Shown: positions 3,046-62,178 of the stretch, piece by piece
Position numbering within the stretch: position 1 is the stretch's first letter
How the letters are laid out: each line of letters begins with the position of its first letter
DNA from: Hydractinia symbiolongicarpus
Taxonomy: Eukaryota > Cnidaria > Hydrozoa > Anthoathecata > Hydractiniidae
Assembly (NCBI RefSeq): GCF_029227915.1
Contig: NC_079888.1
Location: forward strand, 1,626,501 to 1,690,500
DNA length: 64,000 nucleotides
Reading direction: 5' to 3'
Notes under the pieces: model-generated
Told to the model about the DNA's origin: nothing
The model's database searches: none
What the model saw: the letters and a program-made list of their open reading frames with translations, nothing else
Translations under genes and position numbers: made by a program

Positions 3046-3114
3046 GCCCTGTTGGTCTAATGGCTATGACACTCTTATAAATGAGAGATCCAAGTTCGAA
3101 TCCTGGACAGGGCT
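3046..3114 (+). tRNA. tRNA-like sequence with altered anticodon arm (SINE head or pseudogene)
   Basis: The 7 bp acceptor stem is perfect (3046-3052 with 3107-3113). The D-arm has a box A match (TGGTCTAATGG) and the T-arm a box B match (AGTTCGAATCC). The anticodon region is several bases too short for a normal 5 bp stem and 7 nt loop, so no anticodon can be assigned. The downstream text GAAAAACATTA..TTGCAC is shared with the copy at 17974, which suggests a tRNA-derived SINE family rather than a working tRNA. Confidence 0.55.
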
Positions 3115-5735: not shown

Positions 5736-6287
5736 ATGTTGCCAGGTACACTGCCAGTTACTACACACAATCAAGAAAATATTTTATCAACAAATTTACC
5801 AATCACGCAGCCAATACAAAAAAATTTACCAACCACACAGTCAGTACCAACTACAGAGTCGGATTTAAGAATTGTCACAAACGACCAAACCAGTGACCAA
5901 GGTGATATTTACAGAAATGAAACTTCCACCATTCATCAAAATCCCGATGTTGTGGCTGCTGTAGAACAGTTTGAGAAAGGTGAAAAGTTACATAGCTTGG
6001 CAACCTGTAAAGCTTGTTGTGAAACCCGACCAGTATTTCATGCTACCCTTCCTATCACTCCTACTGCAGCAAATAAAACAAAACCAATTACCGTTAAGCC
6101 TTGGAAAATTTTCAGCGATGGAAGGTGTGACAGGTGTCATAGGGAGAGTCTTAGTCGTTTCAAAAAGAGTGTCAAGACACCTGCTAGATTTTCAGGTATA
6201 CTCTCAGCCGATGATGACGAACCCACGATAACATCCGCCCTAATGATATGCATTTTTTACAAGTGCCGCCATATCTCCAAAATTTGA
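5736..6287 (+). pseudogene. Helitron protein N-terminal zinc-binding region
   Basis: About 183 residues: a Thr/Pro/Gln-rich repeat (LPTTQ-type motifs), then Cys pairs CKACC and CDRCH spaced as in the zinc-binding region ahead of Helitron Rep domains. The end overlaps the next frame, whose translation (NDMHFLQVPPYLQNLT) is the expected continuation, so a frameshift lies near 6240. No start signal is visible at 5736; the piece probably once continued from the OTU linker. Confidence 0.6.
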
Positions 6288-7899
6288 CCATGCTGGAAGT
6301 AGCGTTGATTCGTGGTATCACTGTTATCATGAATATACACCTCCTAAGATATGGCATGCTTGCATCAAAAGGACATTGTATCAGTTTCCCTCAAAGAATG
6401 CAAATTGTTGAAGAATTGCCATCGTTACCATCATATGTTGGAATAGTGGTTATTAGAAAAAAGGAAAGTCAAAATTCGGTTCAACAGTATACCGTGCAAA
6501 GGGTTAAAGTTGAAAATGCATTACGAGGGCTGTGTTTTGGATACCCAGAAGGGGGTGTTGAATGTCAAGATACTAAAAATAAACATCAATACAATGGCTC
6601 TGATCACATTGACAAACCTCTAAAAGGACGCTACTTCCAGTTCCTGCCAAATGAATACTATAAGGATGTCTCAATAAAATATGACCGCATTCAAAATTTA
6701 CCAGAGATACGTTCTGAACTACCTGATTTGCCAGTTCTGGAATTACCAAATATCATACCTGAAGGAGATAAGGGTCCTGCTGAAAATCTATTTCAACAAA
6801 ACCTACCTGAAGATGATGAGAGTATAACCCGTTCTGGGTTAGTGTGCCCTGTTGAACCTAAAGATGCTGACAAAGAGTTACGAACACTACTTGAAAAGCT
6901 CTTGGGTTCCGAAGATGCTGTTAATCAAGCTCTTCAACATGGCAATGTTGCAAATGCAAATTTGGAATATACAAGAGAACAGCCTATTCGGGAATTAAAA
7001 ACTCCTGGTTTTTTCACTATGGCATACCCAACTGTTTTTATTATTGGAAATTGTGACTTAACTGTTCCAAGGTTGAATAAAATTAACTTTGAAGAATACA
7101 TCGAACATATATATTATTGTTCTGATAATCGTGTAGCACGTCATCCGTACTTAAAATTTTTCTTATTGAACATGCGTTTCCGAATGCAAGCATTGCAGCA
7201 GGGTAGCTTTCTGGTTTCGGAACAATTAAATGATGCTCACCTCACAATCGCTGAACTGAGAGATAATTTACAAAATGATGATGATTCAGTTTCACGAAAA
7301 ATTATTACTATTGGAAAAAACCTGGTAAATACCGATCCGTACTGGAGAGACCAAAAAAAAAATTGGATGCCATGTTGTTTTTTAGACGAAATGAATTTGG
7401 CGATTTACCAGCATATTTTGATACCAACAGTTGTGCAGAATTTCATTGGAAACCATTGCATGAACTACTTATTAAGTATCATGCGCTAATAAAAAATTTA
7501 AACGAAGATGATGTACGGCAGCAAATGGAGAGCGACAATAAATTCAAACGGGAAATGATTTTACAAAATCTTCATATCGTCACGCAGTATTTTGATGCAA
7601 GGACTATAAATTACTTTGCCACAGTCAGCAAGGAAGTATTTCAATATGATGACTATTGGTTGCGATATGAATTTGCTAAAAGTCGAGGTGAGATACATGG
7701 ACATGCGATAATACCGTCATCTAAACATGCCCAAAAAGTAAAAACTATCATGGATGGGTTCTCTGATAACGTTGCAGACTCACAAGCATCCAAAAATGCA
7801 GCGCAGGAACTTCAAAGTTGGTTGCAAACAACAAACGAAGACGGTGATGACATTTTTTCACCCATGTTCACTTGACTGCATCCTGCCGGTGGAAATAAT
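6248..7899 (+). pseudogene. Helitron-like rolling-circle replication initiator (Rep), first part
   Basis: The first frame (6248 to about 7362) carries the helitron-like N domain: a KGHCISFPQ block, FFTMAYPTVF followed by CDLTVPRLN, then FLLNMRFR and the NLVNTDPYW motif. At a run of ten A (7353-7362) the reading shifts by one to the second frame, which gives the AYFDTNSCAEFHWKPL block and the HUH-type RGEIHGHA motif, the metal-binding site of rolling-circle nucleases. A TGA at 7873-7875 interrupts FT*LHPAGG, and the frame then meets the inserted retroelement at 7899. The protein continues at 13514 in the same phase. The Pif1-like helicase domain expected after Rep was not found, so this copy is non-autonomous. 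Confidence 0.85.
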
Positions 7900-8172
7900 G
7901 AAAAAGGTTTACAATACAGCAAGCTGCACTGAAGTATCTTGTCTACAGGGACGGTGGATGTTAATAAAATTGGGATTAGGCTCCCAGAAATAGGTGCTGA
8001 ATACACTTTCTTGCTTATTACAAGCATGAGTACTGTCCAACTTGGACCTATAACTATTCACTGAGAAAATCTTAAAGAGAAAAAACAATCCTTCAATCAC
8101 AAACAATACGACACAAGACAGAGCTAACAACATAAACGGACTGGTTACAGAACAAACACAAATGGAAAAAAT
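7898..8172 (-). repeat. 275 bp terminal direct repeat, 3' copy
   Basis: Nearly identical to 13242-13516; the only difference noticed is AATA versus AGAA near 7988. On the element strand it is the last 275 bp of the 3' non-coding region, ending ..AAACCTTTTTCAT. The same 3' end occurs at 24170-24443 with an 11 bp deletion. It acts like an LTR in position, but no PBS, PPT or TG..CA ends are seen. Confidence 0.9.
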
Positions 8173-8215
8173 GTATATGTCAAAAATATATAATATAAAA
8201 AGAATTATATAAAAC

Positions 8216-8299
8216 CCTCCTGTGCGCCAGAACTTGTGACTCTGGCTGTAGCTTTCCACATGTGTTACAGGGCCCCAACACTCAGCCTTACACAGGAGG
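8216..8299 (-). ncRNA. Branched structured RNA in the 3' region of the USP retroelement (copy A)
   Basis: On the minus strand a 9 bp closing stem (CCTCCTGTG with CACAGGAGG) encloses two arms: GGCTG/CAGCC capped by GTGTT/AACAC, and CCAGA/TCTGG. The same fold occurs at 24054, 47513, 55381 and 61603. Upstream in the same 3' region (8392-8433) is a conserved block with a GGGT/ACCC hairpin. A role in template recognition by the element's RT is inference. Confidence 0.7.
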
Positions 8300-8647
8300 T
8301 TGTCATGACAGGACCAGCCTGTACATATTTTGACTAAGGACAGCAGGGTTGTCAAGCCTGAAGACCAAGTTAGTAAACTTGGGCACCTTACTGAACTGGG
8401 GTAAAAAGTGGGGTCGTTACACCCAAAGACAAGCTAAAAGCAAACCCCCTTGCTAAGCTTCTTCTAAGTTACCAGAGAGGAGTGAGCTGAACTCTTTACC
8501 CTCTGGGTATTGACGGCAAACTGGTTCAAATGAACTAGCTGGGGTAATATAAAACCGCTCGGATTTACATTTTCCTCCCCCATGACCCTGGAAATACAGG
8601 TTTTATAAACGTAATGATAAATGTATAAGAAAGAAAGAAAAAGCGGA

Positions 8648-9500
8648 TCAACAGCGAACGTAACAAAGAATGTAACATGAATTGTTGTTGCGAATAGGTG
8701 GAGAGCATTTGCAAACCGCTCTATCGTTGCAGTGGTACCAAGAATTTGTGGCAGGATCCTTAACATAAGCCCAATAATGACCTGCGGTTAACGTACCGGA
8801 GTGATTAATTGTTGCTAACAATGAGTAGTTCTGATTAAACATTGTGTCCGTATCACTGACGAGAGGTAGTTGCAGGAGAGAGTCACGTAAAGAAACACAT
8901 TCAACAACTCTGTTGTCTTTTAGCAGATGTTCACCATGTTTTAAAAACCTTTTAAGATGCAGGAATAAGATTTCACTACTCCTGCTGATTTGCGTTTCTC
9001 TAGTACTCTCTCTATGTGCAAAGCATTGCGAACAAAACCACTTGTTTCCATCAGTTAGAATTTCCGGTTCTAAAAATTTGCTGACACAAGATTGGATTTT
9101 AGATGTCATTGGCAGTGTTAAAATGTCCTGCATTTCGACATTTACCGAGGTGCACAGGCAGGTGTTACAGCTTACGGACATTGAGATTTCAGTTGAGATT
9201 TTATCTGCAGCAATCAGGGAAAATCCCTTAAGGGCGTCCAAAACCACAAACAAAATCTCTGCTACATCTTGCTGAGTATTAAATTGGAAGTCCACTTTCC
9301 CATCCGAGTGCATTTGACGTTCGAGGGCCCATAGAAAATTCGAAGGGTCAACAGGTGACAATGATTGCTTCAGCTTCGCCATGTTAAGCGAAATAGACCT
9401 CGCAATAGGTGATAAATGAAACGATTCTGACCCACTCTGGCACCAGTGTTGGAATGGTACTTAATACTTGCAAAATGGCGTTGGCGTAACAAGTGTTGCC
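8648..9500 (-). pseudogene. Ubiquitin-specific protease (peptidase C19) domain of the retroelement
   Basis: USPs are papain-fold cysteine proteases that cleave ubiquitin. Boxes in order: Cys box NKGNTCYANAILQ (about 9500), QQD box NTQQDVAEIL, zinc-finger Cys pairs CNTC and CSQC, LHLKRF, and His box SGTLTAGHYWAYVKD with YHCNDRA. All catalytic positions are kept. A 1 nt frameshift near 9455 separates the Cys box from the rest: upstream of 9382 the second frame stays open and gives HWCQSGSES, which matches the copy at 54.3 kb. The domain is the C-terminus of the polyprotein and ends at the stop at 8648-8650. It is USP by motif; the closest cellular USP cannot be named. Confidence 0.85.
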
Positions 9501-10778
9501 TTTGTTTAAAAAACCGATGTTTTTATAGACACTAATTGGTTGAGTGTCATTTTTATTTTGGCTAACCTTTTTAGATGGCCCCTTTCGGCGAGATGAAACA
9601 CCCCTGGTCTCCACAATGGGCAAAGCCTGCTTGGATTTGGGTAATTGCATTAAGGAGTCAGTTGACCAAACATTGGATTCACGTGCCAGCCAGATACAAA
9701 AAGAAGACCTCATACTGATTTTACCGAGATCCTTTGCAGTGGAATAAGCAAGTTTGTTGGTGAAACCCATTCTTTTTAAACAGGCAGTGGTGGTTCTTGC
9801 ACAATATCCGCTTGCTCCTACTTCCACTGCGAAGAAATCAACTTGCCAGCCATTAAACATAATCACATTCATTAAACAGGAATACTTTGCAACTTTGGTG
9901 GAGTGCCAAGCATTCATGTTTTCCTCACATGGGCAAGTGAGTTCTACAATAATAACGCGCTTAAGGTCATTTGAATATAACACAAGGTCTGGTTTAAGCT
10001 CAGAAATGGCAATATGGCTAGGAAACACATAGTTCGAGTGTGTGTCAGCAACAATCTTCCAATCTTTGGTCAGGTGCAGTATACCTGACACTTTAGATTT
10101 TGTATGTGCCTTTGACCCGGCTCTCGGAAAGGTTATTTTTTGACAATTTTTAGGAGGTTCAGAAGGAAGCTCAAAAATGAACTTTTTCAAAGTTTCTACC
10201 AAATGGGTAAGTACAGAATCGTGTCTAAAGGTATATCTACCCTGGGAAAGAGCAGTTTTACAAGCACCAAGAATGTGAGCAGAAGTGCAAATTTCTTTGT
10301 GACATAGGAAACATGACGGTTCTGTATTTATTTTCCACCTCCTTTGGTTACTTGGTGATGGCAGAACATCGTAAGTGGACTGCAGGCAGAAAGATAAGAG
10401 ATTAGGAGGAGTTGCTAGGATGTTCTTCTATGAAAGATCAAACTTTACGTAGTTCTCCCATCTTGTCCATTGGCCCTGCACCTGAAGTTGCAGTGCCTTA
10501 GATAGATAGCTTTCCTCGTCAATCTCAGCCGATGTTTTTGCGATTAACTTTCTGTACTTGTGAGTGGTTTTTGGTGGTATTACTTCCACTTTACAAATGC
10601 CAAGACCGGTTCGCCCATGCTGTACAGGACCCCTTATGGTCTTGTACTTTAATTCACCCTCAGCTATGTCAACTGCATCGCTCACCTTCCAAGAACCTGC
10701 CTTTAAAGATGGATTGAGTGTTGACAGAATTGGATCTTTGGAGTGACGCAAAAGTAGGTGACCGCTAATCTTTGCGGA
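9501..10778 (-). pseudogene. Zinc knuckle and restriction-like endonuclease (RLE) domain of the retroelement
   Basis: This continues the RT frame without a shift. Two nonsense codons are in frame: TAA at 10779-10781 and TAG at 10428-10430; the latter is TGG in the copy at 34.7 kb. A zinc-binding motif CFLCHKE..HILGAC is followed by RHDS, then the PD-(D/E)XK-type core KPDLVLYSN..IIVELTCPCEE and a KVAKY motif, as in R2/R4/NeSL/Hero-type RLEs that nick target DNA. The domain ends with FCIWLARES and a basic Pro/Ser linker into the USP Cys box. The same order occurs at 34640-35490. Confidence 0.85.
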
Positions 10779-12911
10779 TTATAAAATAGAAGTGAGGCTC
10801 TTAATGGGCAGAGGGCAAGGAGAGGAGTCAGCATATAGGGAGATGTTTGTGATGGAACGGTGTAAGTTCAGCCATTTTCGTATGAACACTGAAATCTTTT
10901 GCTCTAGGCGCCCAGCAACAGACATCGAAACCTCGTATATTAACAGTGGCCACTGAATTCGCGGGATTAAAAGATGTTGCAAGATCCAAAGTTTTTGAGC
11001 TCCAGTGTATAAGGACTTATTAATGACACCAAGCCCTTCTATCAGCTTTTCCTCCAATTCGTTGATGGACTTCCTGTCTGAGATAGAACAATCAATAATC
11101 CGGCCTAAAAATCGCACTGGCGAGGCATGAATAGATGGGATATACTGTGAGAAATCAATGTCGTTTTCGGGGCTACTTACACTAAAAGGGGTGCTATTGA
11201 TAGATCTTCCCTTAATGATCACAAAACTACAGGATTTTTCAGCGCGAAATGTCATATTGGCCCAACTTAGAGCTGTGGTGCACCTGTTAAGGAGTACTTG
11301 TGTTCCAGCAACAGAAGAAGACATGATGTTTATGTCGTCCATGAAAGCCCTTATTAAAGGTAAGGATACTCTGTTAGAGGTGATGTAGCATGACACAGAT
11401 GTTGCCAGCGTATACTCCAAAATAACATTTATGCCTGATAAAAACAAGACGATAGACAGGGTGCAGCCAGCGAAGATGCCCCTGAAGTGCTGGTGCCAAT
11501 TGCTTGGAGCAGATTTGGAGAATGATTTGCTGTACAGCCCAGAATAGTAATCCTTTACAATGGCAATCCAACTAGGAGATATACCATACCTTTCCAAAGC
11601 AAAAAAGATTAATCTGTGCGGTATTGAGGGATACGCACTTGCGATATCCAACCAAATGGTGGCAAGATCAGTTCTTGCAGAGCGTGCATCTTTTAAAGCT
11701 GTCCAGATTGACGACATGTGTTCCCAACAGCCAGGAACATTCGCCATGCACCCCTTTTGAACGGACGTGTTAATAAATTTGTTGTTATGGATGACATGTG
11801 TTTCTAGTCGCCTTGAAAAAATACTAAAGAATAATTTTCCTTCGACATTTAGGAGGGCTATAGGTCGAAAATCTTTTAGGTTAGATGGTACAGGAGTTTT
11901 GGATTTGGGAATGTAAATTTCTTTGGCATGACGCCATTGAAGAGGCACAACACAATTTTTTAAACAACACTTAAATACATTAAACAAGAAGGATGAAATT
12001 TTCGTACATTTTTTGTACACTTTGTAAGATATGCCATTTAGCCCAGGAGCTGAGGCGTTCCTACGCGTATATAAAACACCTGCAAAATCAGAAAATTTGA
12101 AAGCTGTGGCTGAGAAAGCTTTCTTGATCTGAGGAGGTGGTGGAAGACCTGGAAGAAGGGGAAGAGAAGAGTCGTGAAAATTATCAGATAAGCTAGATAA
12201 TTTATGGTTGTCCAGAACAGACTGTTCAACACAAAGACGAACATCTGATTTAGGGTTAAGCAGGTCCTTTCCTGCGTTGTAGGGATTATTCCTGAAAACC
12301 TTTTGGGCGTTCTTAAAGCTCCACTTTCTTCTTCTTCGTTTCTCACCTCGACGCATCACCCTTATTTTTATTCGAACTTGTTGCAACAGTTCTTGCAAGG
12401 CAGTTAGTTCCTCCTTGATGGTTGATGAGGCAATCTGCGCTAACAGAACATTTTTCTCCTTAACCAGATTAATGGAACGTATTGTACGCCTGTTAATACT
12501 GGCAATGTTTTTTGTTTGATTTGAGGAGCGGCAACCAAATATTTTTGAAGCCTCTTCGTAAATTAAAGTTTCGAGTGTTTTAACTTTCTCAGAAATGGAT
12601 AGATTGGTACAAGCCTTTAGCTTGCTATGCACAGCACTGTCTAAGTCACTCCAACGCTTATCATTCATCTTACCCCATAGAATGGGGGCTTTCTCATCGA
12701 GGTTCTGAAGTTTGTTTTTTTCCGTGTGACACAATTTACTTTTGTGGGATGTAACCGAAGTAGAGATTGTGGTCTTAAGCTTTTCAGCACCACTGAGAGA
12801 ACAAACATCCTCCAAAACAACTTTACAGCTTTTCATCAAGTGCTTTTGGAGTACTGTATCATTTTGTTTATTGCAATGATTCTTTTCGAAGTTGGGTATA
12901 AAAGAAGTCAT
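10779..12911 (-). CDS. Reverse transcriptase region of the RT-RLE-USP polyprotein
   Basis: 710 residues from ATG at 12911. Residues 1-250 are a basic, coiled N-terminal region without recognised C2H2 fingers. The RT core starts near residue 283 (ASAPGLNGI). It has DFRPIALLNVEGK (347-359), motif A ATIWLDIASAYPSIPH (Asp422), FAGCTLSI (480-487) and motif C AFMDDINIM (Asp525-526), so MDD replaces YADD. FLGRIID and the thumb follow. Similar sequences are common in marine animal genomes, and the RLE downstream places it with RLE-type non-LTR elements; the exact clade is uncertain. Parts of the same RT occur at 26999-27703. Confidence 0.9.
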   Translation of the reverse strand: MTSFIPNFEKNHCNKQNDTVLQKHLMKSCKVVLEDVCSLSGAEKLKTTISTSVTSHKSKLCHTEKNKLQNLDEKAPILWGKMNDKRWSDLDSAVHSKLKACTNLSISEKVKTLETLIYEEASKIFGCRSSNQTKNIASINRRTIRSINLVKEKNVLLAQIASSTIKEELTALQELLQQVRIKIRVMRRGEKRRRRKWSFKNAQKVFRNNPYNAGKDLLNPKSDVRLCVEQSVLDNHKLSSLSDNFHDSSLPLLPGLPPPPQIKKAFSATAFKFSDFAGVLYTRRNASAPGLNGISYKVYKKCTKISSFLFNVFKCCLKNCVVPLQWRHAKEIYIPKSKTPVPSNLKDFRPIALLNVEGKLFFSIFSRRLETHVIHNNKFINTSVQKGCMANVPGCWEHMSSIWTALKDARSARTDLATIWLDIASAYPSIPHRLIFFALERYGISPSWIAIVKDYYSGLYSKSFSKSAPSNWHQHFRGIFAGCTLSIVLFLSGINVILEYTLATSVSCYITSNRVSLPLIRAFMDDINIMSSSVAGTQVLLNRCTTALSWANMTFRAEKSCSFVIIKGRSINSTPFSVSSPENDIDFSQYIPSIHASPVRFLGRIIDCSISDRKSINELEEKLIEGLGVINKSLYTGAQKLWILQHLLIPRIQWPLLIYEVSMSVAGRLEQKISVFIRKWLNLHRSITNISLYADSSPCPLPIKSLTSIL

Positions 12912-13241
12912 AACTATAGGGGTTGATTATGCAAAGGATAAGATTGTCAGCCCTGCGTTGCCTGGCGCACAGGGTAAGGCTATAGTTTTCACAGCGGCAC
13001 CAAGACTGTGAGGATTCGCTAGCGACTAATTAACCCATTAGCCATTCATCCGTTGACGCGTACCGTGGATTAGGGTCCGGTTATAATAAAATCAAAATCA
13101 GTATACACAATCGAGTCCTTTAAAACGGTCATGTCGATCCAGTTGCAAACAGTTTACCGGTCTTTCCCAGTGTCACTAGTCTTTCCCAGTGTCACTAGTC
13201 TTTCCCAGTGTCAGGTTGAAACCATTGCGGTCAACAATAAG
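12912..13241 (-). other. 5' leader of the retroelement
   Basis: Non-coding on the element strand between the 5' direct repeat and the ATG. It contains a tandem array of the 19 bp unit TCTTTCCCAGTGTCACTAG (13161-13213, 2.8 copies). A promoter is likely here by position only. Confidence 0.5.
13161..13213. repeat. 19 bp tandem repeat, 2.8 copies
   Basis: Unit TCTTTCCCAGTGTCACTAG, perfect between copies, in the 5' leader of the retroelement. Repeated leader modules sometimes carry promoter activity in retroelements; that is inference. Confidence 0.85.
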
Positions 13242-13516
13242 ATGAAAAAGGTTTACAATACAGCAAGCTGCACTGAAGTATCTTGTCTACAGGGACGGTG
13301 GATGTTAATAAAATTGGGATTAGGCTCCCAGAAGAAGGTGCTGAATACACTTTCTTGCTTATTACAAGCATGAGTACTGTCCAACTTGGACCTATAACTA
13401 TTCACTGAGAAAATCTTAAAGAGAAAAAACAATCCTTCAATCACAAACAATACGACACAAGACAGAGCTAACAACATAAACGGACTGGTTACAGAACAAA
13501 CACAAATGGAAAAAAT
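13242..13516 (-). repeat. 275 bp terminal direct repeat, 5' copy
   Basis: Near-identical to 7898-8172. On the element strand it stands at the 5' end, so a piece of the 3' end precedes the full element. It could be a Penelope-like pLTR, a template-jump dimer or a short 5'-truncated copy that landed first. Confidence 0.9.
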
Positions 13517-14711
13517 ACTTCTGGAATTAGAGATTGGGTTCCTAACAAAGATCAATGGGCAAGACCGGAAGGGACTCAAGCTCCTCTAGACCATAACCCA
13601 TTGGCGCAAGAACTTGCAGATGTCGCTAACCATGAAGGTGGTATTGGAGAGCAACATACTTATCTTGTTAATAGAATAGGTCTCCATAATTGTAATTCCA
13701 GTTGTTTGCGTTATCGTCGTAAGAATAATAAGGAAAAGGATACTGCTCCAAAAAAGTACTGTCGCTTTCATTTTGGCGATCTTGATCCACAAACCAAAAA
13801 AACAAGTGGTAAAGTGATTCATCCTTTTAATGCTGCCATAACAGAAGGGGAACATCCTAGATATGAGGGACCACGCGATCATCCTCGCTTGATGATGCAT
13901 GTAAAAACACGCCTATTTAGTTGGCTAGCAAATTGTGATAGTCAACCCATTATCGATCAGGACCTTCTCGCTCTACAAAAATGCATTGCCAGTTATGCTT
14001 GCAAAGGGGCTGCTTCAACCGAAGATTTAGTACATGATTATCGGCATCTCATTGAAAACACTGCTGACAGAAGCACTGTTAAAAATTTGGCTCAACGACT
14101 GCTTCAAAAAATTGCTGGTCTAGTAGACGTACCAGGTACTGCGGCAGATTTCATTATTAGTTGTGGCCGTTTGACTAGATCTACCAGGAATTTTTCGATA
14201 CATTGGTATCAGTGGCTTCCGAGCTTTGGATACGTTTGGTGAAGATGGAACTGTTACAAAGAGTAGCACATTGGATAAATACTTGAGCGATAAGCGTAGA
14301 GAAACAGAGCCAGAAATATCATTATGGAACTGGAGCAAGAAATGTAATTGTACGTGCAAAGTAGATCACATCCCAGTTTTTACTGGAATATCAACAAAAC
14401 CTGTTTGGCCTGTTACTGAGGACTATGCAAAAGCTATGCTCATTATATTTTCTGTGGGAACGTGGCATAATACTGAAGAATTGAAAGGACAACATGAGTC
14501 ATTTGCTGCAGTTTTGGCTTCCCTTGTTCAAACTGAAGAATGTCCATCAATATTAATTGATTCATTGAAAGAGGCTGAACAATCTTTCGATAAAAAGAGC
14601 AAGAGAACACGAAGTCACACTAGTGTAATCAATATTCAAACTTCATATTCAAACTTCAATATTCAGCTTTATGCTGATTATTCATGGCGTTGTAGGCCAA
14701 TTGCAACCTAA
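13514..14711 (+). pseudogene. Helitron-like protein, continuation after the insertion
   Basis: It opens in phase with the upstream Rep piece (NTSGIRDW). It continues with HTYLVNRI and a Cys pair, CRFHFGDLDPQTK, PRDHPRLM and WLANCDSQPII, all conserved in the middle of Helitron proteins. A frameshift near 14215 leads to the second frame (YGED-type acidic motif, CNCTCKVDH). Alignment with the copy at 25.1-26.1 kb shows about 90 percent identity by eye. It dissolves at about 14650 into a tandem repeat. No helicase follows. Confidence 0.8.
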
Positions 14712-17973: not shown

Positions 17974-18040
17974 GCCTTGTTAGTCTAATGGCTATGACAC
18001 TCGTAAACGAGAGATCCAGGTTCGAATCCTGGACAGGGCA
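17974..18040 (+). tRNA. tRNA-like sequence, second copy, shortened anticodon arm
   Basis: Acceptor GCCTTGT pairs with ACAGGGC (one G-T). Box A is TAGTCTAATGG and box B GGTTCGAATCC. The T-stem CCAGG/CCTGG is perfect. The anticodon region is only CTCGTAAACGAG, a 4 bp stem with a 4 nt loop, about six bases short, so it cannot be a normal tRNA. It shares the GAAAAACATTA..TTGCAC tail with the copy at 3046. Confidence 0.55.
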
Positions 18041-23664: not shown

Positions 23665-24443
23665 TGGTTGTTTTTGTGTATATTCTTTGTTACGTTCGCT
23701 GTTGATCCGCTTTTACTTTCTTTCTTATACACTTATCATTACGTTTATAAAACCTGTACTTCCAGGGTCATGGGAGAGGAAAATGTAAATCCGAGCGGTT
23801 TTATATTACCCCAGCTAGCTCATTCGAACCAGTTTGCCGTCAATACCCAGAGGGTAAAGAGTTCAGCTCACTCTTCACTGGTAACTTAAAAGAAGCTTAG
23901 CAAGGGAGTTTGCTTTCAGCTTGTCTTTGGGTGTAACGACCCCACTTTTTACCCCAGTTCAGTAAGGTGCCCAAGTTTACTAACTTGGTCTTCAGGCTTG
24001 ACAACCCTGCTGTCCTTAGTCAAAATATGTACAGGCTAGTCCTGTCATGACAACCTCCTGTGTAAGGCTGAGTGTTGGGGCCCTGTAACACATGTGGAAA
24101 GCTACAGCCAGAGTCACAAGTTCTGGCGCACAGGAGGGTTTTATATAATTCTTTTTATATTATATATTTTTGACATATACATTTTTTCCATTTGTGTTTG
24201 TTCTGTAACCAGTCCGTTATGTTGTTAGCTCTGTCTTGTGTCGTATTGTTTGTGATTGAAGGATTGTTTTTTCTCTTTAAGATTTTCTCAGTGAATAGTT
24301 ATAGGTCCAAGTTGGACAGTACTCATGCTTGTAATAAGCAAGAAAGTGTATTCAGCACCTTCTTCTGGGAGCCTAATCCCAATTTTATTAACATGTAGAC
24401 AAGATACTTCAGTGCAGCTTGCTGTATTGTAAACCTTTTTCAT
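23665..24443 (+). mobile_element. 5'-truncated 3' end of the USP retroelement
   Basis: This is colinear with the reverse complement of 8655-7898: it starts just past the USP coding end, includes the hairpin blocks and the branched RNA, and ends ..GTAAACCTTTTTCAT. One 11 bp deletion relative to the 7.9 kb copy. 5' truncation is the usual product of target-primed reverse transcription. Confidence 0.9.
24054..24137 (+). ncRNA. Branched structured RNA (copy B)
   Basis: Same sequence and fold as 8216-8299: 9 bp closing stem 24054-24062 with 24129-24137, arms GGCTG/CAGCC with GTGTT/AACAC, and CCAGA/TCTGG. Upstream hairpins GGGT/ACCC (23929-23942), CCAAGTT/AACTTGG (23971-23988) and CAGG/CCTG (23993-24009) belong to the same 3' region. 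Confidence 0.7.
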
Positions 24444-34639: not shown

Positions 34640-35490
34640 AAGTTGAGATAAGTAGAGCTATGCAGTTACAACTGCAGGGACATTGGAATGGATGGGAGAA
34701 TTATGTCAAAAACAACCTGTCATGGAAATCCATTCTAGCCATGCCTCCAAACTTGTTGTCTTTCTGTCTTTCCTCTACGTGCGACGTCCTTCCTTCTCCT
34801 AGTAACTTAAAGCGCTGGAAAATTATGTCAGAATCCTCTTGCTTTTTATGTAGAAAGGAGGTGTGCACAACAGCACATGTCTTAGGAGCCTGTAAGGTTG
34901 CCCTGTCGCAAGGCAGGTTTACTTTCAGGCATGATTCTGTCCTTTGCGAGCTTCTTTTCCATCCCAAAAAGTTCTATTCTGAAGTAATACCATCAAATAA
35001 ACAGTGTGCCCGCAAAGTACCCTTTGTCAAGGCAGGTACCTACACCTCGGGAAAAAGATCAAAATCAACAGGTCTTCTGCACTTTGCCGACGACTGGGTC
35101 TTTTTAGTAGACCTAAGCAACGGATTCGTTTTTCCAGCCCATATAGCCATCATCTCTTTAAAACCGGATGTTGTGATATATTCTAACTGTTCTAAGCACG
35201 TCATCCTAATTGAGCTTACTTGTCCTTGTGAGAAAAATATGGAATCTTGGCACTCCAAAAAGCTTTATAAATATGCTCCACTAGTTGAGGTAATACGCGG
35301 TAACGGGTGGTTGCCATATATATTTGCCATTGAGGTAGGTCCTAGATGGTACTCTTCGAAGTCTGTACCTTGCTGTTTAAAATCTCTTGCTTTCAGCAGC
35401 CGTTCTGCATTTTCAACTGCACGCAAACCTGGTGATATGAGCATGAAAGGTTCTTTTTATATCTGGATTGCCAGAGCGTCGACACAATAG
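34640..35490 (+). CDS. Zinc-RLE endonuclease part of a second USP retroelement
   Basis: Open for about 283 codons in the same frame that starts at 34531; the first part of that frame is Penelope sequence. It holds QLQLQGHWNGWENYV, the TGG codon that is a stop in the 10.4 kb copy, CFLCRKE..HVLGAC, FRHDS, and the nuclease core LKPDVVIYSN..ILIELTCPCEKN with KKLYKY, ending FYIWIARAS. PD..E-x-T and the following Lys fit a PD-(D/E)XK nuclease. The RT is missing; the USP follows after a stop. Confidence 0.8.
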
Positions 35491-35537
35491 TCCCAGTAGC
35501 CTCCTCTTCACCTCTATCACAACACAATCACTTCCCT

Positions 35538-36466
35538 ATGGCAAATTGTTCAACTTTAAAACTGCATCAAAATGCCCCACCTCCACCCACGCATCCTAAT
35601 CAAACATCAACCAAAAAGGCTGTTTCCAACATTCACCCTAGGTTGATAAACAAAGACAATTCTTGCTATGCGAACTCCATTCTTCAAGCATTAACTATCC
35701 GTCCAAAGCTCTGGGCTCAGTTGCCATCAGAGACTTGTTGATGTCAGCACTAGAGAAATCTATAGTGATAAATGTGTCCCTTTTATGTTGCTCGAGTTCG
35801 GCAATTGACCCATCAAACTTTCGGCGGTCCTTGCAAAATAGCCAACAAGATGTCCCTGAAATTTTACAAGTTGTTATTGATTAGTTGATCGGATCTTCAT
35901 CTTTGGTGGACGAAATTCTCTCAGTAACATTGACCACAACAAAGTCCTGTAATTTTTGCTTTTATTCATCTTCAAGAAGCCAAAAGAAGCCCATTTTAAC
36001 CTTACCAACACTTATGTCAATATAGGACTCCTTTAATTATTTTTTCCAACCTCAGCAACTTTTAGGCGACAACAAGTGGTATTGTCCCCAGTGCTCGACA
36101 CATCAGGAAGCAACAGTCGAGACAATAATATCAAATTGTGGAAGTGTTTTAGTTGTCCAATTGTTAAGGTATACATCTCTTAATGGGTCATCGTTTAAAG
36201 ACAACAGGTTGGTTTTGTGCCTTCCAAAGAAACATCACGTCTTGAAAGTACCATCCCATCCCTCTGAGGATGTGTGTTTCAATAAAACATTCAATTTAGT
36301 TGCCACCATCAACCACTCCGGCACTCTTAGGGCAGGCCATTACTGGGCTTTTATCAAGGACAAGCATAACACCTGGCTTAAGTGTGACGATCGTGCCATT
36401 ATTGCGGTGGATTCATCGCAACTTGACAATCGTTCTGCTTACATACTGTTCTTTAGTAGAAGTTAG
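35538..36466 (+). pseudogene. USP domain of the second retroelement copy
   Basis: Cys box INKDNSCYANSILQ keeps the catalytic Cys though GNT became DNS. Frame changes near 35740, 35883 and 36030 separate the QQD box NSQQDVPEIL and the zinc pair (WYCPQCS) from the last frame (36161-36466), which has SGTLRAGHYWAFIKD and KCDDRA with the catalytic His intact. It ends FFSRS at 36466. The usual structured 3' region is not found after it; an AGACGT cluster follows instead. Confidence 0.8.
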
Positions 36467-47439: not shown

Positions 47440-47720
47440 GCAGGGTGGGTAACTTTGTTTACCTACGGGGTTAACGGTCCCGCTGAACCTAGTTAATAAT
47501 TTTTGGGTGGAATTCAATGGTAAGGCTGAGTGTTGGTATACCATAAAACATGTTTGAGGTTACAGTCAGAGTTCAAGTTATGACGCCATTGAAATGCACA
47601 TTTCTCTCGATTTGTCGTTAAACAAAATATAAAAATGTTAATAAAACCTCTATGATTTAACCCTAAAACTTTACAGGTTGAGTATTTAATTGTGCCTTGC
47701 TGCAATGTTCAAAATTTTCT
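47440..47720 (+). mobile_element. Old, diverged solo 3' end of the USP retroelement
   Basis: It aligns with the 3' region at 55.2-55.5 kb: GGGTTAACGGTCCCGCTG at 47469 and the strict core AAGGCTGAGTGTTGG at 47522. Much of the rest has diverged while pairing is kept. No coding part is attached. Confidence 0.75.
47513..47593 (+). ncRNA. Branched structured RNA, most diverged copy
   Basis: The closing stem TTCAATGG (47513-47520) pairs with CCATTGAA (47586-47593), fully different in sequence from the other copies (CCTGTG/CACAGG) yet perfect. GGCTG/CAGTC, GTGTT/AACAT and GTCA/TGAC keep the inner arms. Upstream GGTAA/TTACC (47448-47463) and CGGG/CCCG (47466-47482) replace CCAAGTT/AACTTGG and CAGG/CCTG. 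Confidence 0.7.
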
Positions 47721-52400: not shown

Positions 52401-52479
52401 TGCTAAAGGGTTTCAATACGCTTGCTGTGTAAAGAGCTTCACTGCCTTGCCTGCACAAGAATCACTAGACAGCAACAGC
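49441..52479. other. Long AT-rich region without a supported gene
   Basis: No coding motif found. A diverged direct duplication links 50753-50828 and 50920-50994 (AACAAACAATC..GGACATATT..GAGTATATTC). The rest is A/T-rich with homopolymer runs. Confidence 0.45.
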
Positions 52480-53202
52480 GGCTTGCTAAATTTGGGCAAC
52501 ACATGTTACATCAATTCCATCTTGCAATGTTTTTATGTGTTACCCGCAGTCGCCACAGCCATCTGCAAATGATTTTAATATGGCGATAGGTAAAAGTTTT
52601 TTAAGTATTCTACGCAAACTATCCTCCTCCAAGGTTCCAGTGAACACTTCTTCATTTTTGAATGCATTAAAAGGCCATATTTCTAATGCAAGGGGTGCTG
52701 CTTTTAATCCGTACTCTCAGCAAGACGCCCTAGAGATTCTTGAGTATCTCATACCAGAGTTGTCCTTAGCCTTTCCTTTCTTTGGTAGATTATTCAACAC
52801 TCGTGTGAAAATCTGCACTACTTGCAGCGCTTGCAATAATATTAGCACCTCTGAGCAAGTAAGTCCATTTCTTCAACTGCCCTTGACATCGATTGTACAA
52901 TCTTTCTGCAATTAAAGCGCTTTGCCTATAACAAAGGTCTTGTGTCTAAGGTTTGTTCCCCTGCCATATCTTACCCGGGCACCCTTTCTATACCTATCAC
53001 TGTAGACAGTGAAGTCTCTTGTCGCAAGCACTAAAACTTAAGGGCTGTATTTAACCACTCTGGAAATTTGAACAATGGCAATTACACTACTGTTGCTTAT
53101 AACTAAGTGCATGGTAAGTGGTTTCATTGCAACGACAGAGCAGTTGTCCCTTGCAAACAAAGCTGGCTTAATGGTGTACAACCTTACATCCTTTTCCTTT
53201 AA
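52480..53202 (+). pseudogene. USP domain, divergent subfamily, catalytic His lost
   Basis: Cys box GLLNLGNTCYINSILQC (Cys codon at 52504-52506). After a shift near 52570 come YSQQDALEIL, CTTCSACN and PFLQLPL. A shift near 52900 gives FLQLKRFAYNKG, and then NHSGNLNNGNYTTV, where the catalytic GHY is GNY, followed by WFHCNDRA and PYILFL with a TAA stop. Box sequence differs from the 9 kb and 54 kb copies (NLGNTC versus KGNTC) and resembles the 62 kb copy, so at least two USP subfamilies exist. The upstream RLE was not recognised. Confidence 0.8.
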
Positions 53203-53549: not shown

Positions 53550-54057
53550 GTTGATTACATCCGGATTTTCCAATTATTACACGAAGCAAACGTTTTAGAT
53601 CGAATGCGTGGCCTAATATCTTTGACACAGCACAGCACAAAAATTGACATAACACTACATCTAAATTTAAATCCCTTCTACTTTATTATCTATGAACAAG
53701 TAATAAACCTGGAATATGTATTAACTCGTGCTTTCTTACACTTAATTTCTGGGAGTGATTTTGCCCAACAACAATTATCACTGTGGTCTTCTTTTGCACT
53801 GATAATTGTTTTCATTGTGGCGTTTCCCTGCTCGACCATACCTTGGATTGCGCGCGACTAGGTGGTCCATGAATAAAAATAGTTTTTGCCTGGTCAAATT
53901 ACAGAAACGCAATCCATAATACTATTAACAAACTCCTTCCTGTTGTCCGAGTGTATAGTCTTTAGCAACCCAAAGAAGGACAAATATGTCTGTCGTTTTG
54001 TACGCCGTCTTTCCTTCCAGAGGAATTGGTCAAATAAAGTTGAAGTCAACTTGGTGA
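53550..54057 (-). pseudogene. LTR-retroelement integrase fragment
   Basis: Minus-strand reading: KTIHSDNRKEFVNSIM (the catalytic D-N..EF box), then after a shift IQGMVEQGNATMKTII and WAKSLPEI, the segment that holds the last catalytic Glu in retroviral-type integrases (SQG.VE..N). Closer in style to Ty3-type/GIN integrases than to the BEL copy at 29 kb, but short. It ends exactly where the next USP copy begins. Confidence 0.65.
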
Positions 54058-55110
54058 CATGTGCATTTGGGTCGCTAGAAATACAAAGGTATGGAATGAA
54101 CACAGCCACATCCCTATTTCAACCAACTATTCCATACCCACTCCTCTAATGCCAACGGCCAAACAACCAACAGTCACCAAGCCCTATACACCTGTTAACG
54201 CAGGTCCAGACCCACCTACCCACAGCAAAGTAATTCACGCAGGATTAATAAGTAGAGGAAATACCTGTTACGCCAATTCCATCCTGCAAGCATTAACTGG
54301 AATCCCATCATTTTGGTTACATTGTGCTTCGGAATCTTCTCTTGTTTCTCCTCTATTGAAGTCTGTTATGCTGAGTATGTCCATGCTGTCCCAGTCTTCC
54401 ACAGCTGTTGACCCTTCCGCCTTCTTAAAAGCCTTGCAGCGTGAGATGTCCAGCATTAGGAAGACCCCATTCGACATTAATACCCAGCAGGACGTGCCAG
54501 AAATACTGCTTCATGTCTTGGGGGAATTAGCAGGCCCTTCGGTTGTCGCAAATAATATCATCACCAACATTATAACCACTACGACGTCGTGTATGCATGC
54601 TTCTTATCAACTAGCAGGGAGGAAAGTATGCCTATTGTGCCACTCCCTATCTCAAACATCGTCACAGGTTCAATTAATTGTTTTTTGCAGCCCGAAAATT
54701 TGTCTGGAAATGACAGGTGGCTTTGCCCGCAGTGCTCTTCTTATCAAGACAGTACAATCGAATTGGTTTTCACCCAGTGTGGAGACATTCTAATTATCCA
54801 ACTGAAGAGGTGTACGTTTCTTGATGGAAGAACCCTAAAAAATAACAAATTTGTTCCCTGCCTTGCTTCAAATGACGGCATTTTTAGAATTCGCTCTCGG
54901 CCAACGGATGACATATCATTTAACAACAAATATTCGTTAGCTGCCACTATTATTCATTCAGGTATCCTAGGAGCAGGTCACTATTGGGCATTCATTAAAG
55001 ATCGCAGCTGTGGCTCATGGTCAAGATGTGACGATAAAGCAGTTGTTACAGTTGCACCATCCGATTTAAATAACTGTTCTGTGTATGTGTTGTTTTTTGT
55101 GAAAATGTAA
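54058..55110 (+). pseudogene. RLE tail plus USP domain, best-preserved coding copy on this strand
   Basis: Starts in the RLE C-terminus (CIWVARNTKVW), then a Pro/Thr linker and Cys box ISRGNTCYANSILQALTG. AVDPSAFLKAL, NTQQDVPEIL and a frameshift near 54590 follow. The second frame has WLCPQCSSY, ILIIQLKRC (normally LKRF) and the His box SGILGAGHYWAFIKD with RCDDKA, ending LFFVKM. Apart from one frameshift it is open over 350 codons with all catalytic residues. 3' region follows directly. Confidence 0.85.
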
Positions 55111-55690
55111 AAATTCTCCTATAGAGTATTCATAAGAAACATAGCAAGGGGGTTCGACTATGTCTTGTCTTTGGGTGCGACGACCCCACTTTTTACCCCC
55201 GTCCAGTAGGGAGGCCAAGTTTGCTCACTTGGTCTACAGGGTTAACGATCCTGCTGTACCCATAGTTATTCTTGTAAGAAGCACTGCAAGGGGGTGTGAA
55301 ATTTCTCTTTTATGTCTTCGTCGTTTTACGGCCACGCATATCAACCTGGTCATGACCAAGGCTGGTCCTTAGCATCAATCACCTGTGTAAGGCTGAGTGT
55401 TGGGATCCCGTAACACGTGTAAAGCTGCAGCCAGGTTCACAAGTCCTGGCACATAGGTAGTTGTTTGCCCCCTTTTTATAGTTTTTGTTTATTTGTATAT
55501 ATATACGTTTTATGTCAATATATGTGTTTTTTGTTTTGTTGGTGCACTATTTGTATTGTCCAGAGGGTTGATTTTTCAGTTAACTTGGTTGTACAGACCA
55601 TCCTTGTAAAAGGGAGATCTTGCTTTGCACAGAGATCTTTAGAGGGTTTAACCTCTACCACTTAAAATAAGAGTCATTAGACCAGTCGAA
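55111..55690 (+). mobile_element. 3' region of the USP retroelement (copy D)
   Basis: Order: AGCAAGGGGGTTCGACT, CTTTGGGTGCGACGACCCC, CCAAGT/ACTTGG hairpin, CAGG/CCTG hairpin, the branched RNA at 55381-55458, and an end block AAAAGGGAGATCTTGC..AGAGGGTTTAACCTCTAC shared with 48.3 and 49.3 kb. This gives the full 3' region for the subfamily. Confidence 0.8.
55381..55458 (+). ncRNA. Branched structured RNA (copy D)
   Basis: Closing stem ACCTGTG/CATAGGT (one G-T), GGCTG/CAGCC with GTGTT/AACAC, and CCAGG/CCTGG. The last stem shows an A-T to G-C change against the 8 kb and 24 kb copies (CCAGA/TCTGG). Confidence 0.7.
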
Positions 55691-60985: not shown

Positions 60986-61218
60986 GACAACATATTGGAG
61001 GTACCTTCACTTCCTGCAGATGGTGTATCTTTTACCAACAAATACAAACTAGTGGCAACTATAAATCATTCAGGAACACTAGCAGCAGGTCATTATTGGG
61101 CATAAAGAATGGAATGTAGACGAGGGGTTGAAATGCGATGACAGGGCAGTAGTTAAGGTTAAGCCGTCTGATATAAATAACTCAACAGTGTATGTGTTCT
61201 TCTTTCTCAAGCTGTGAA
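60986..61218 (+). pseudogene. USP C-terminal fragment
   Basis: Reads VSFTNKYKLVATINHSG and LAAGHYWA with the catalytic His, then a frameshift or stop at about 61104, and LKCDDRAVVKVKPSD with VYVFFFLKL and a TGA stop. The 3' region follows, as in the other copies. Truncated on the left. Confidence 0.8.
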
Positions 61219-61700
61219 AACGCAAGTTTTGCTTTGCAAAAGGGGGAGGATTGTTTTTCCTGGCAGTTTTATTACCCCGGTTGTTATTTTCACCGGCAGC
61301 CTACCGTAATTCAGGAGTTTGTTCACTCTCCACTTTCTAACATAGTAATTAAAAGAAACTAAGCAAAGGGGTTTGACAATCTATCTTGTCTTTGGGTATG
61401 ACGGCCCCACTTTTAACCCCAGTCCATTAGGGAGGCCAAGTTTGCTCACTTTGTCTACATGGTTAACGATCCTGATGTTCCCACAGTTTTTGTTATAAGA
61501 AGCTTTGCAATTTCTTTTTTGGGTCTTCGTTGATTTACGCCCACGCATTTTACCCCAGTAACTTTAGGCTGGTCCTGACATGGGCTGGTCCCAAGCGTAA
61601 ATCACCTGTGTAAGGCTGAGTGTTGGGATCCCGTAACACATGTGGAAATCTACGGCCAGGTTCACAAGTCCTGGCGCATGGGTGGTTGTCTGCTCTTTAT
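61219..61700 (+). mobile_element. 3' region of the USP retroelement (copy E)
   Basis: AGCAAAGGGGTTTGACAAT, CTTTGGGTATGACGGCCCC, the CCAAGT hairpin with one mismatch, then the branched RNA. It ends near 61690, where another, 5'-placed part of the family begins, so two copies are joined head to tail. Confidence 0.8.
61603..61684 (+). ncRNA. Branched structured RNA (copy E)
   Basis: Closing stem CACCTGTG/CATGGGTG (8 bp, two G-T), GTGTT/AACAC, GGCTG/CGGCC (one mismatch) and CCAGG/CCTGG. Independent sequence changes keep most pairs. Confidence 0.65.
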
Positions 61701-61704
61701 TAAA

Positions 61705-62178
61705 ATCCCTAACTTTTACTTCCATGAGTGCTTCTTTTTACATCTGGATGTCTCGAAATTCTACCACTTGGGTTGAGCCTGAAAAGGCCCCAATCATTCC
61801 TGAAGTTTCTTCTGTTACAAATATGGAATGTAAGAAATCAAAAACCCCTGAGAAATCTTCCGCAAATCACACAAAATCTTGTAAAATCAAAAAACCTGAA
61901 AAACTTGCTACAAGGTCTTCCAAAACAACAGTCGCATTGCCATCTAACCCTGATTTTAAGAATAGCGGTCTAAAAACTTGGGAACCACATGTTATGCAAA
62001 CTCCATCTTACAATGTTTTTATAACCTTCCAAAAGTTAAAGAAGCCATTTCTGTCACCAAAACAACCTCAAAGTTAGGCGAAGCATTTGTAGGTGTTCTT
62101 CAAAGTTTGGCTGTCTCTAGAAGTCCAGTCACACCTAATACATTTGGACTGTTGAAAGAATATTATGCTGGAAAATAA
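61705..62178 (+). pseudogene. RLE tail and USP Cys box, NLGTTC subfamily
   Basis: The RLE end MSASFYIWMSRNSTTW is followed by a Lys/Pro/Ser linker. A 1 nt deletion inside the Cys box (about 61972) splits it; the second frame reads LGTTCYANSILQCFYNLP and SPVTPNTFGLLKEYYAGK, stop. It lacks the rest of the USP. Box sequence is closest to the 52.5 kb copy. Confidence 0.75.

Follow-up and report, generated by a model that had tools for sequence, protein, structure and literature searches.

R2 is a non-long-terminal-repeat (non-LTR) retrotransposon that encodes a reverse transcriptase (RT), a linker, a zinc knuckle and a C-terminal restriction-like endonuclease (RLE) in one open reading frame (ORF). 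Some other long interspersed nuclear elements (LINEs) with an RLE also encode a protease: NeSL and one Utopia element carry an N-terminal Ulp1-like protease, according to the available part of PMC4640811. Here, we describe an R2-like element that ends in a ubiquitin-specific protease (USP) of peptidase family C19. It lies in a 64,000-nucleotide (nt) stretch of Hydractinia symbiolongicarpus (assembly GCF_029227915.1, contig NC_079888.1, positions 1,626,501-1,690,500, forward strand), hereafter the window. An earlier reading of the letters alone (the sequence-only reading) had proposed this fusion and cited the Ulp1 protease of NeSL as a precedent, and PMC4640811 bears out that precedent in the part available.

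The closest described system is R2, which is the best solved match of the Hydractinia element by both sequence and fold. Both encode, in a single ORF, the RT, the linker, a zinc knuckle and an RLE at the C terminus; the Hydractinia element differs in adding a USP after the RLE, and its flanks vary. Targeting of ribosomal DNA, where R2 has its 28S target, was not seen: the 3' flanks differ among the copies compared, and the window copy sits in a Helitron-like ORF. NeSL and Utopia, as far as the available text describes them, are likewise RLE LINEs whose protein includes a cysteine protease of the ubiquitin/SUMO type. However, their protease is Ulp1-like and N-terminal, whereas that of the Hydractinia element belongs to C19 and is C-terminal. 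They also target spliced-leader or U2 genes, while the flanks of the Hydractinia element differ. Dualen/RandI is a further LINE with an RLE, but Dualen has an apurinic/apyrimidinic (AP) endonuclease besides (PMC4640811, part available). No AP endonuclease was found by Pfam in the four ORF pieces of the window copy. The sequence-only reading credited Dualen with an OTU protease, as a further precedent.

Deubiquitinase-type domains are also found with DNA transposons. Ulp1 and OTU domains occur in Ginger and other DNA transposons, and one transposase protein carries a peptidase C19 domain, according to the portion of PMC2836005 available. Ginger, Mutator and Helitron elements with Ulp1 or OTU domains thus resemble the Hydractinia element in pairing such a domain, by fusion or by association, with a transposition enzyme. 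The C19 case, a Trichomonas transposase_11 protein, is a single example in that text, and the enzymes of these DNA transposons are unrelated to those of the RT-RLE element. The main text of the Hydractinia genome paper, in the part available, does not use the word ubiquitin (PMC11067881). We found no USP in a retrotransposon in the literature at the level of titles and abstract openings, a scope outside which most subscription journals and all of Repbase fall. The RT-RLE-USP fusion is therefore probably new, which is short of proven.

The element and its reading frame

The fusion of RT, RLE and C19 USP in the window is real. The RT with its MDD motif, the zinc knuckle with the RLE, and the C19 USP with the boxes claimed for it in the sequence-only reading were all found by Pfam and profiles at 8648-12911 on the minus strand. 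Three ORF pieces, delimited without start codons (12926-10779, 10778-10428 and 10427-9384), share a frame and are separated by two stop codons. A fourth piece (9460-8648) lies in another frame, which makes one frameshift. Two nonsense codons and one frameshift in about 1420 codons had been read from the letters, and the intact frame proves to have 1426 codons. The coordinates then given, 8648..12911 without a strand, fit the ORF but not the full element, which is larger (7897-13512). Over 5571 bases, the window copy is 98.2% identical to an intact copy, L018.

Each domain can be traced separately. A profile built in the present analysis places the RT at 10740-12308, and the RT of the intact copy matches that of R2 (E 1.9e-20). 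The zf-RVT match scores 23.0 bits, under the curated cut-off of 27.5; the C, C, H and C residues of the knuckle are invariant in the sequences compared. The first box of the UCH domain falls in the third ORF piece (E 4.5e-5; 23.6 bits, under the cut-off of 23.9) and the rest in the fourth (E 1.5e-24).

Copies, homologues and inheritance of the USP

Intact copies of the element are present elsewhere in the genome. We searched the 480.9-Mb genome with the UCH and RLE profiles; the matches come from the best 149 of 1015 UCH candidates and the best 150 of 815 RLE candidates. The UCH search gave at least 150 matches, at least six of them in open frames of 1426 codons. Among 20 loci fetched, six hold a complete, stop-free 1426-codon frame, and two others reach 1422 (L020) and 1423 codons (L021); these loci were picked for long frames, so 6/20 is no genome frequency. 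Intact copies are 99.4-99.8% identical to L018, and all copies of its family (family 1) are 98.7-99.8% identical. These near-identical intact copies show that the element was recently mobile.

The USP is a nearly constant companion of the RLE. At least 153 genome matches to the RLE were found, 150 of them listed; for 63 of these 150, the list of UCH matches includes one that lies 91-473 bases downstream in the same orientation. For 38 of the remaining 87, we fetched the downstream 1.6 kb and found a USP in the sense frames of 35 and in the antisense frames of none (0/38). The USP thus follows the RLE in 98 of the 101 copies examined among the 150 listed (49 were left out). Copies were compared singly. 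That the fusion is a family trait and not a chance junction, as the sequence-only reading held, is borne out by the six intact frames and by these 98 copies, which likewise show that full-length members carry the USP. That reading had also seen RLE and USP joined elsewhere in the window. At 34.8-36.5 kb, profiles find both; at 54.0-55.1 and 61.7-62.1 kb, profiles find only the USP, and the RLE, which gave no profile match there, was recognised by eye as a short tail within the ORFs. A profile match adds one more USP piece at 60989-61105.

Homologues from other assemblies carry the same architecture. A search with an intact copy returned 68 homologues, most of them from other assemblies, and 57 of the 68 have a USP. 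An RLE is recognisable in 64, and the USP is present in 57 of these. Six of the seven RLE homologues without a USP end within 36 residues of the RLE; the seventh, P0066, has a USP-less tail of 194 residues. One RT-RLE-USP protein, P0030, is filed under a Pseudomonadales metagenome bin and is probably from a misbinned eukaryotic contig.

The active site of the USP is conserved throughout. After removal of four short USPs, we aligned 53 homologues with the reference copy. The catalytic Cys is invariant (54/54), as are the catalytic His and Asp (53/53 aligned, with one gap each). In the QQD box, the second Q is kept in 43/54 and the D in 54/54. Each of the four zinc-ribbon Cys positions is kept in 54/54; this ribbon is not retained by every USP. 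The predicted model has a pLDDT (predicted local distance difference test) mostly above 90 in the USP, which is tethered by a 39-residue linker with pLDDT below 50. A fold search with the USP of this model matched USP8, USP2 and USP4 (best E 6.5e-26; template-modeling score by target 0.66-0.84 among the 50 matches listed), and the modelled endonuclease matches the R2 endonuclease fold. Human USP8, USP2, USP15 and USP36 are among the best sequence and fold matches, with 21-26% identity in structural alignments. Together, alignment and predicted fold support the assignment of a C19 USP within an RLE non-LTR element. A fold search against viruses gave giant-virus USPs, as a USP fold would predict. 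A search with the USP part returned nine element proteins and one weak other match, P0099, which is not an element; it pointed to no cellular origin of the USP.

USP-bearing elements group together phylogenetically. The RT tree (73 rows) places all 46 rows that carry a USP within one clade of 52, with support of 99/98. The sister of this clade is P0061, followed by five fish, scallop and other rows, all without a USP. Of the six USP-less rows inside the clade, two (P0003 and P0046) give no RLE match and the other four (P0045, P0051, P0059 and P0060) end at most 36 residues past the RLE; these are truncated rows. The RT tree left out rows with poor RT coverage and P0067, P0068 and P0096-P0098; it holds no RT reference sequences of named clades and is unreliable at its R2 root, a long branch. 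In the RLE tree (80 rows, without P0007, P0010, P0014, P0036, P0042, P0046, P0050 and short-RLE rows), the USP rows are again together. P0095 lies inside the group, and P0061, a protein that ends 5 residues past the RLE, stands in an unresolved fork beside it. A search with the USP-less relative P0066 returned 31 proteins including itself, scallop, cichlid and pipefish entries among them, and 30 of the 31 have no PF00443 match (the exception is P0095). RT and USP distances are strongly correlated (Mantel r 0.877 over 38 proteins; 0/5000 permutations as high). The simplest reading of these sequence comparisons is that the USP was gained once and then co-inherited with RT and RLE. Several gains are not needed, the USP-less rows within the clade being truncated.

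Some relatives carry other domains behind the RLE. P0089 (1056 aa, jgi), an RT-RLE relative outside the USP clade, has a DarT domain (PF14487, E 4.4e-23) after its RLE. In P0079 (1009 aa), another RT-RLE relative, the C-terminal tail contains a WW domain (E 1e-9). The post-RLE tails of seven other relatives scanned have no Pfam match.

The USP appears to be under purifying selection between families. Among main-branch families, the proportions of synonymous (pS) and nonsynonymous (pN) differences in the USP are about 0.65-0.88 and 0.16-0.38, respectively; between the main branch and a second, deeper branch, they are 0.76-0.93 and 0.46-0.51. Seven comparisons with the reference copy gave nonsynonymous to synonymous rate ratios (dN/dS) of 0.11-0.17 at dS 2.1-2.3, and the pair L006-L044 gave 0.12 at dS 1.48. 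With dS near saturation in these informative pairs, the codon comparisons support purifying selection on the USP, at a dN/dS of about 0.11-0.17 between families. Of the checks named in the sequence-only reading, those on full-length members, on trees and on dN/dS of the USP came out in its favor.

What the USP may do

We favor, with a probability of about 0.6, the reading that this is a recently active lineage of RLE non-LTR elements whose single protein ends in a cellular-type USP, and that this USP would strip ubiquitin from the element's own protein or ribonucleoprotein (RNP). The complete active site, the retention of the USP across a diverse clade and its flexible tether suggest that removal of ubiquitin helps the element. 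A role in ubiquitin removal, from the RT or from proteins at the target site, had been put forward in the sequence-only reading and is plausible. Proteins of such elements bind their own RNA in cis. For this reason, the own protein or RNP is the substrate that needs the fewest assumptions, and we infer that it is the most likely one. The element protein would bind its RNA in cis, and the USP would remove ubiquitin from that protein or RNP. The protein might thereby escape proteasomal clearance and survive long enough to act. The RLE would then nick DNA, and the RNA would be copied by target-primed reverse transcription, which is established for R2 and presumed for the Hydractinia element. The flexible linker could let the USP work while the RT-RLE core holds RNA and DNA. 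Self-processing of the polyprotein through a ubiquitin fusion is unlikely: a Pfam scan of the four pieces and of five homologues turned up no ubiquitin domain.

Several observations weigh against the favored reading. No USP is seen in 3 of the 38 fetched RLE loci or in 11 of the 68 homologues. The nearest relatives found, including fish and scallop entries, do without a USP, which is therefore not essential to the mechanism. The USP label changes 6 times on the RT tree, and a single change is found in none of the bootstrap trees, because six truncated USP-less rows sit inside the USP clade; on the RLE tree it changes 3 times, at least 2 of them forced (P0051 and the unresolved P0061). The selection estimates are also limited: saturated pairs gave no ratio, three of the seven comparisons (L036, L038 and L039) come from a single array, and for L035 and L037 the tblastn matches overlap and add up to more codons than the domain has, so that some were perhaps counted twice. 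Close, same-family or decayed copies give dN/dS of 0.34-0.70 and 0.40-1.03. Several of the copies compared are decayed, which raises the ratio, and values of 0.34-1.03 among close copies are as expected after insertion. Finally, self-protection and an action on proteins of chromatin, repair or host defence are not told apart by this evidence.

The loci and homologues without a USP, like the broken state of the window copy, would also fit a junction formed by chance or by misassembly, or a USP that is only a dead passenger. We give this explanation next to no credence. A chance junction or dead domain is ruled out by the six intact copies, the USPs of the 57 homologues, mostly from other assemblies, the invariant active site and the low dN/dS.

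It is also conceivable, if on balance unlikely, that the USP acts at the insertion site, where it would deubiquitylate histones or repair and replication proteins and so ease target nicking, second-strand cleavage or junction repair. The one copy tested inserted without duplication and with a small deletion, but this is usual for RLE elements that lack a protease. Furthermore, no chromatin-reading domain exceeds the Pfam cut-off in the pieces and homologues scanned. In favor of such a role, nearly all RLE copies examined (98/101) have the USP behind the endonuclease within one protein, and a repair role has been proposed for transposon Ulp1 and OTU domains in the available part of PMC2836005.

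A role in counter-defence, in which the USP would deubiquitylate components of host restriction or small-RNA pathways and prevent silencing of the element, seems to us quite improbable. The USP has diverged further than the RT (mean distances of 0.68 and 0.45, respectively, over 38 proteins), as would be the case for a domain that faces changing host partners, and the relative P0089 has its DarT-like domain in the same place. However, dN/dS between families is well below 1, faster divergence is also expected from weaker constraint, and a candidate host target of the USP is not known.

The fusion has wider implications. Ubiquitin/SUMO-type proteases have joined RLE LINEs at least twice, as different enzymes and at opposite termini: an N-terminal Ulp1-like protease in NeSL/Utopia, as the available text describes them, and a C-terminal USP here. 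This repeated capture suggests that ubiquitin/SUMO control is a general obstacle for RLE LINEs. Hydractinia is a laboratory animal with genetic tools. The intact, near-identical copies make the role of the USP testable, for the catalytic Cys alone separates a normal element from a protease-dead one. R2-type proteins are under development as gene-insertion tools, in which protein stability matters, to judge from the parts of that literature available.

Element ends, 3' RNA and other features of the window

Copies of the element start at different places and have a nearly constant 3' end. All 11 copies that reach the 5' untranslated region (UTR), counting fetched loci and the window copy, start in a repeat, from 110 bases to >2 kb in length, of the element's 3' end. 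Such tail-derived starts are seen, among others, in L009, L010, L012-L015, L018, L021, L023 and the window copy. Seven family-1 copies are 5' truncated and start inside the element, and L027 has a 5' inversion (by eye). At the 3' side, 17 of 18 junctions lie within a few bases of one end (two run into a tandem copy), and L026 ends earlier. Among the matches listed, three pairs stand head-to-tail at spacings of 5.37-5.39 kb, and C13:23.68-23.70 Mb contains five RLE matches at intervals of about 5.3 kb.

The window copy interrupts an ORF with a DUF6570 match, which we take to be Helitron-like. Comparison with five uninserted target copies indicates that 8 target bases were lost and none duplicated (one copy tested). 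Site-specific insertion was not seen: the 3' flanks differ among the copies compared. A stretch of the left part of the Helitron-like ORF has 40 genome matches, the window included. N-terminal C2H2 zinc fingers are usual in R2 and NeSL; a simple pattern finds none in the first 600 residues of the reference copy. Among the other proteins, leaving P0099 apart, the pattern occurs N-terminally only in P0061, P0071 and P0076, all outside the USP clade, and many homologues are perhaps 5'-cut.

The 3' UTR of the element contains a conserved structured RNA. Between families 1 and 2, whose ORFs share 59% DNA identity, no other stretch is as well conserved as its 76-base block (89%, against a mean of 56%). 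The common fold of 14 representatives has one outer helix together with two inner stems and a hairpin, the P5-P2-P1-P4 layout of a type-P5 twister. None of 500 shuffles reaches the observed fraction of paired cells (94.5%), number of cells changed on both sides (15) or covariation score; the counts of pairs with changes on both sides (5) and of pair types (15) are reached in 304/500 and 474/500 shuffles, respectively. The Rfam model Twister-P5 (RF02684) scores 28.2 bits in one copy, below its gathering threshold of 37.6. Other Rfam scans of the element RNA gave no twister match, and the remaining Rfam matches are at chance level. A genome search with Twister-P5 also gave no match, though its control matched nowhere either. 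From its topology and the one sub-threshold match, we call this RNA twister-like and no more. The 5' ends of copies do not lie at the RNA block, which speaks against a simple role in forming the 5' end. In the window, the RNA at 55359-55471 comes after the RLE-tail-USP copy at 54044-55104, and that at 61584-61696, from another copy, just precedes the RLE tail at 61724.

Penelope-like elements offer a parallel for this arrangement. They form head-to-tail copies and have a GIY-YIG endonuclease; Pfam found no GIY-YIG endonuclease in the four ORF pieces. Penelope pseudo-LTRs contain hammerheads, and truncated twisters in RTE elements are mentioned as work in preparation, in the part of PMC7761336 available. 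Pseudo-LTRs are shared, and a ribozyme inside them may be, but the Hydractinia RNA is twister-like, not a hammerhead, and the endonuclease is an RLE. We raise as a tentative possibility that the element is the first described LINE lineage with a captured USP; that it reveals a docking slot behind the RLE (filled by a deubiquitinase here, a DarT-like ADP-ribosyltransferase in P0089 and a WW domain in P0079); and that its own twister-class self-cleaving RNA would process head-to-tail transcripts, a Penelope-like life cycle for an R2-like machine.

Table 1. Positions in the window of the element, its parts, its target and related copies
Feature	Position	Strand	Remarks
Entire element including UTRs and terminal repeats	7897..13512	-	boundaries from five uninserted target copies, L068-L072
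Polyprotein ORF, RT - zinc knuckle - RLE - USP	8648..12911	-	ATG at 12911; decayed copy
RVT_1 reverse transcriptase core, palm motif FMDD	11100..11912	-	Pfam E 1.9e-16
Zinc knuckle C-x2-C-x8-H-x4-C (zf-RVT)	10251..10394	-	Pfam E 1.3e-4; directly upstream of RLE core
Zinc knuckle and RLE, PD...E-L-T...K...Y	9660..10343	-	profile
C19 USP: Cys box, QQD, four zinc Cys, His box, Asp	8651..9566	-	Pfam, alignment, fold, profile
5' terminal direct repeat, partial upstream copy of own 3' end, pseudo-LTR-like	13242..13512	-	
3' terminal direct-repeat copy	7898..8100	-	element ends ...CCTTTTTCAT
Conserved structured RNA, element 3' UTR, twister type-P5-like topology	8210..8315	-	
Left half of interrupted Helitron-like ORF (target)	6218..7896	+	DUF6570 E 2e-14
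Right half of interrupted Helitron-like ORF (target)	13513..14242	+	no Pfam match alone
Second RLE-USP copy, another family	34807..36460	+	profile: RLE 34807-35487, USP 35595-36460
USP fragment, further family	52444..53202	+	profile
Short RLE tail joined to USP	54044..55104	+	USP 54221-55104 by profile; RLE tail by eye, same frame
Short RLE tail, linker, broken USP start	61724..62145	+	USP 61975-62145 by profile, other frame; RLE by eye
Further copies of the conserved RNA	24037-24143, 47520-47586, 55359-55471, 61584-61696	+	

Two further observations concern the surroundings. Paired matches in opposite orientation at G000 C2 32.29-32.89 and 35.26-36.00 Mb suggest a large inverted duplication, either real or an assembly artefact. 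Within the window, two tRNA matches on the plus strand (3046-3114 and 17974-18040) lie above the Rfam threshold.

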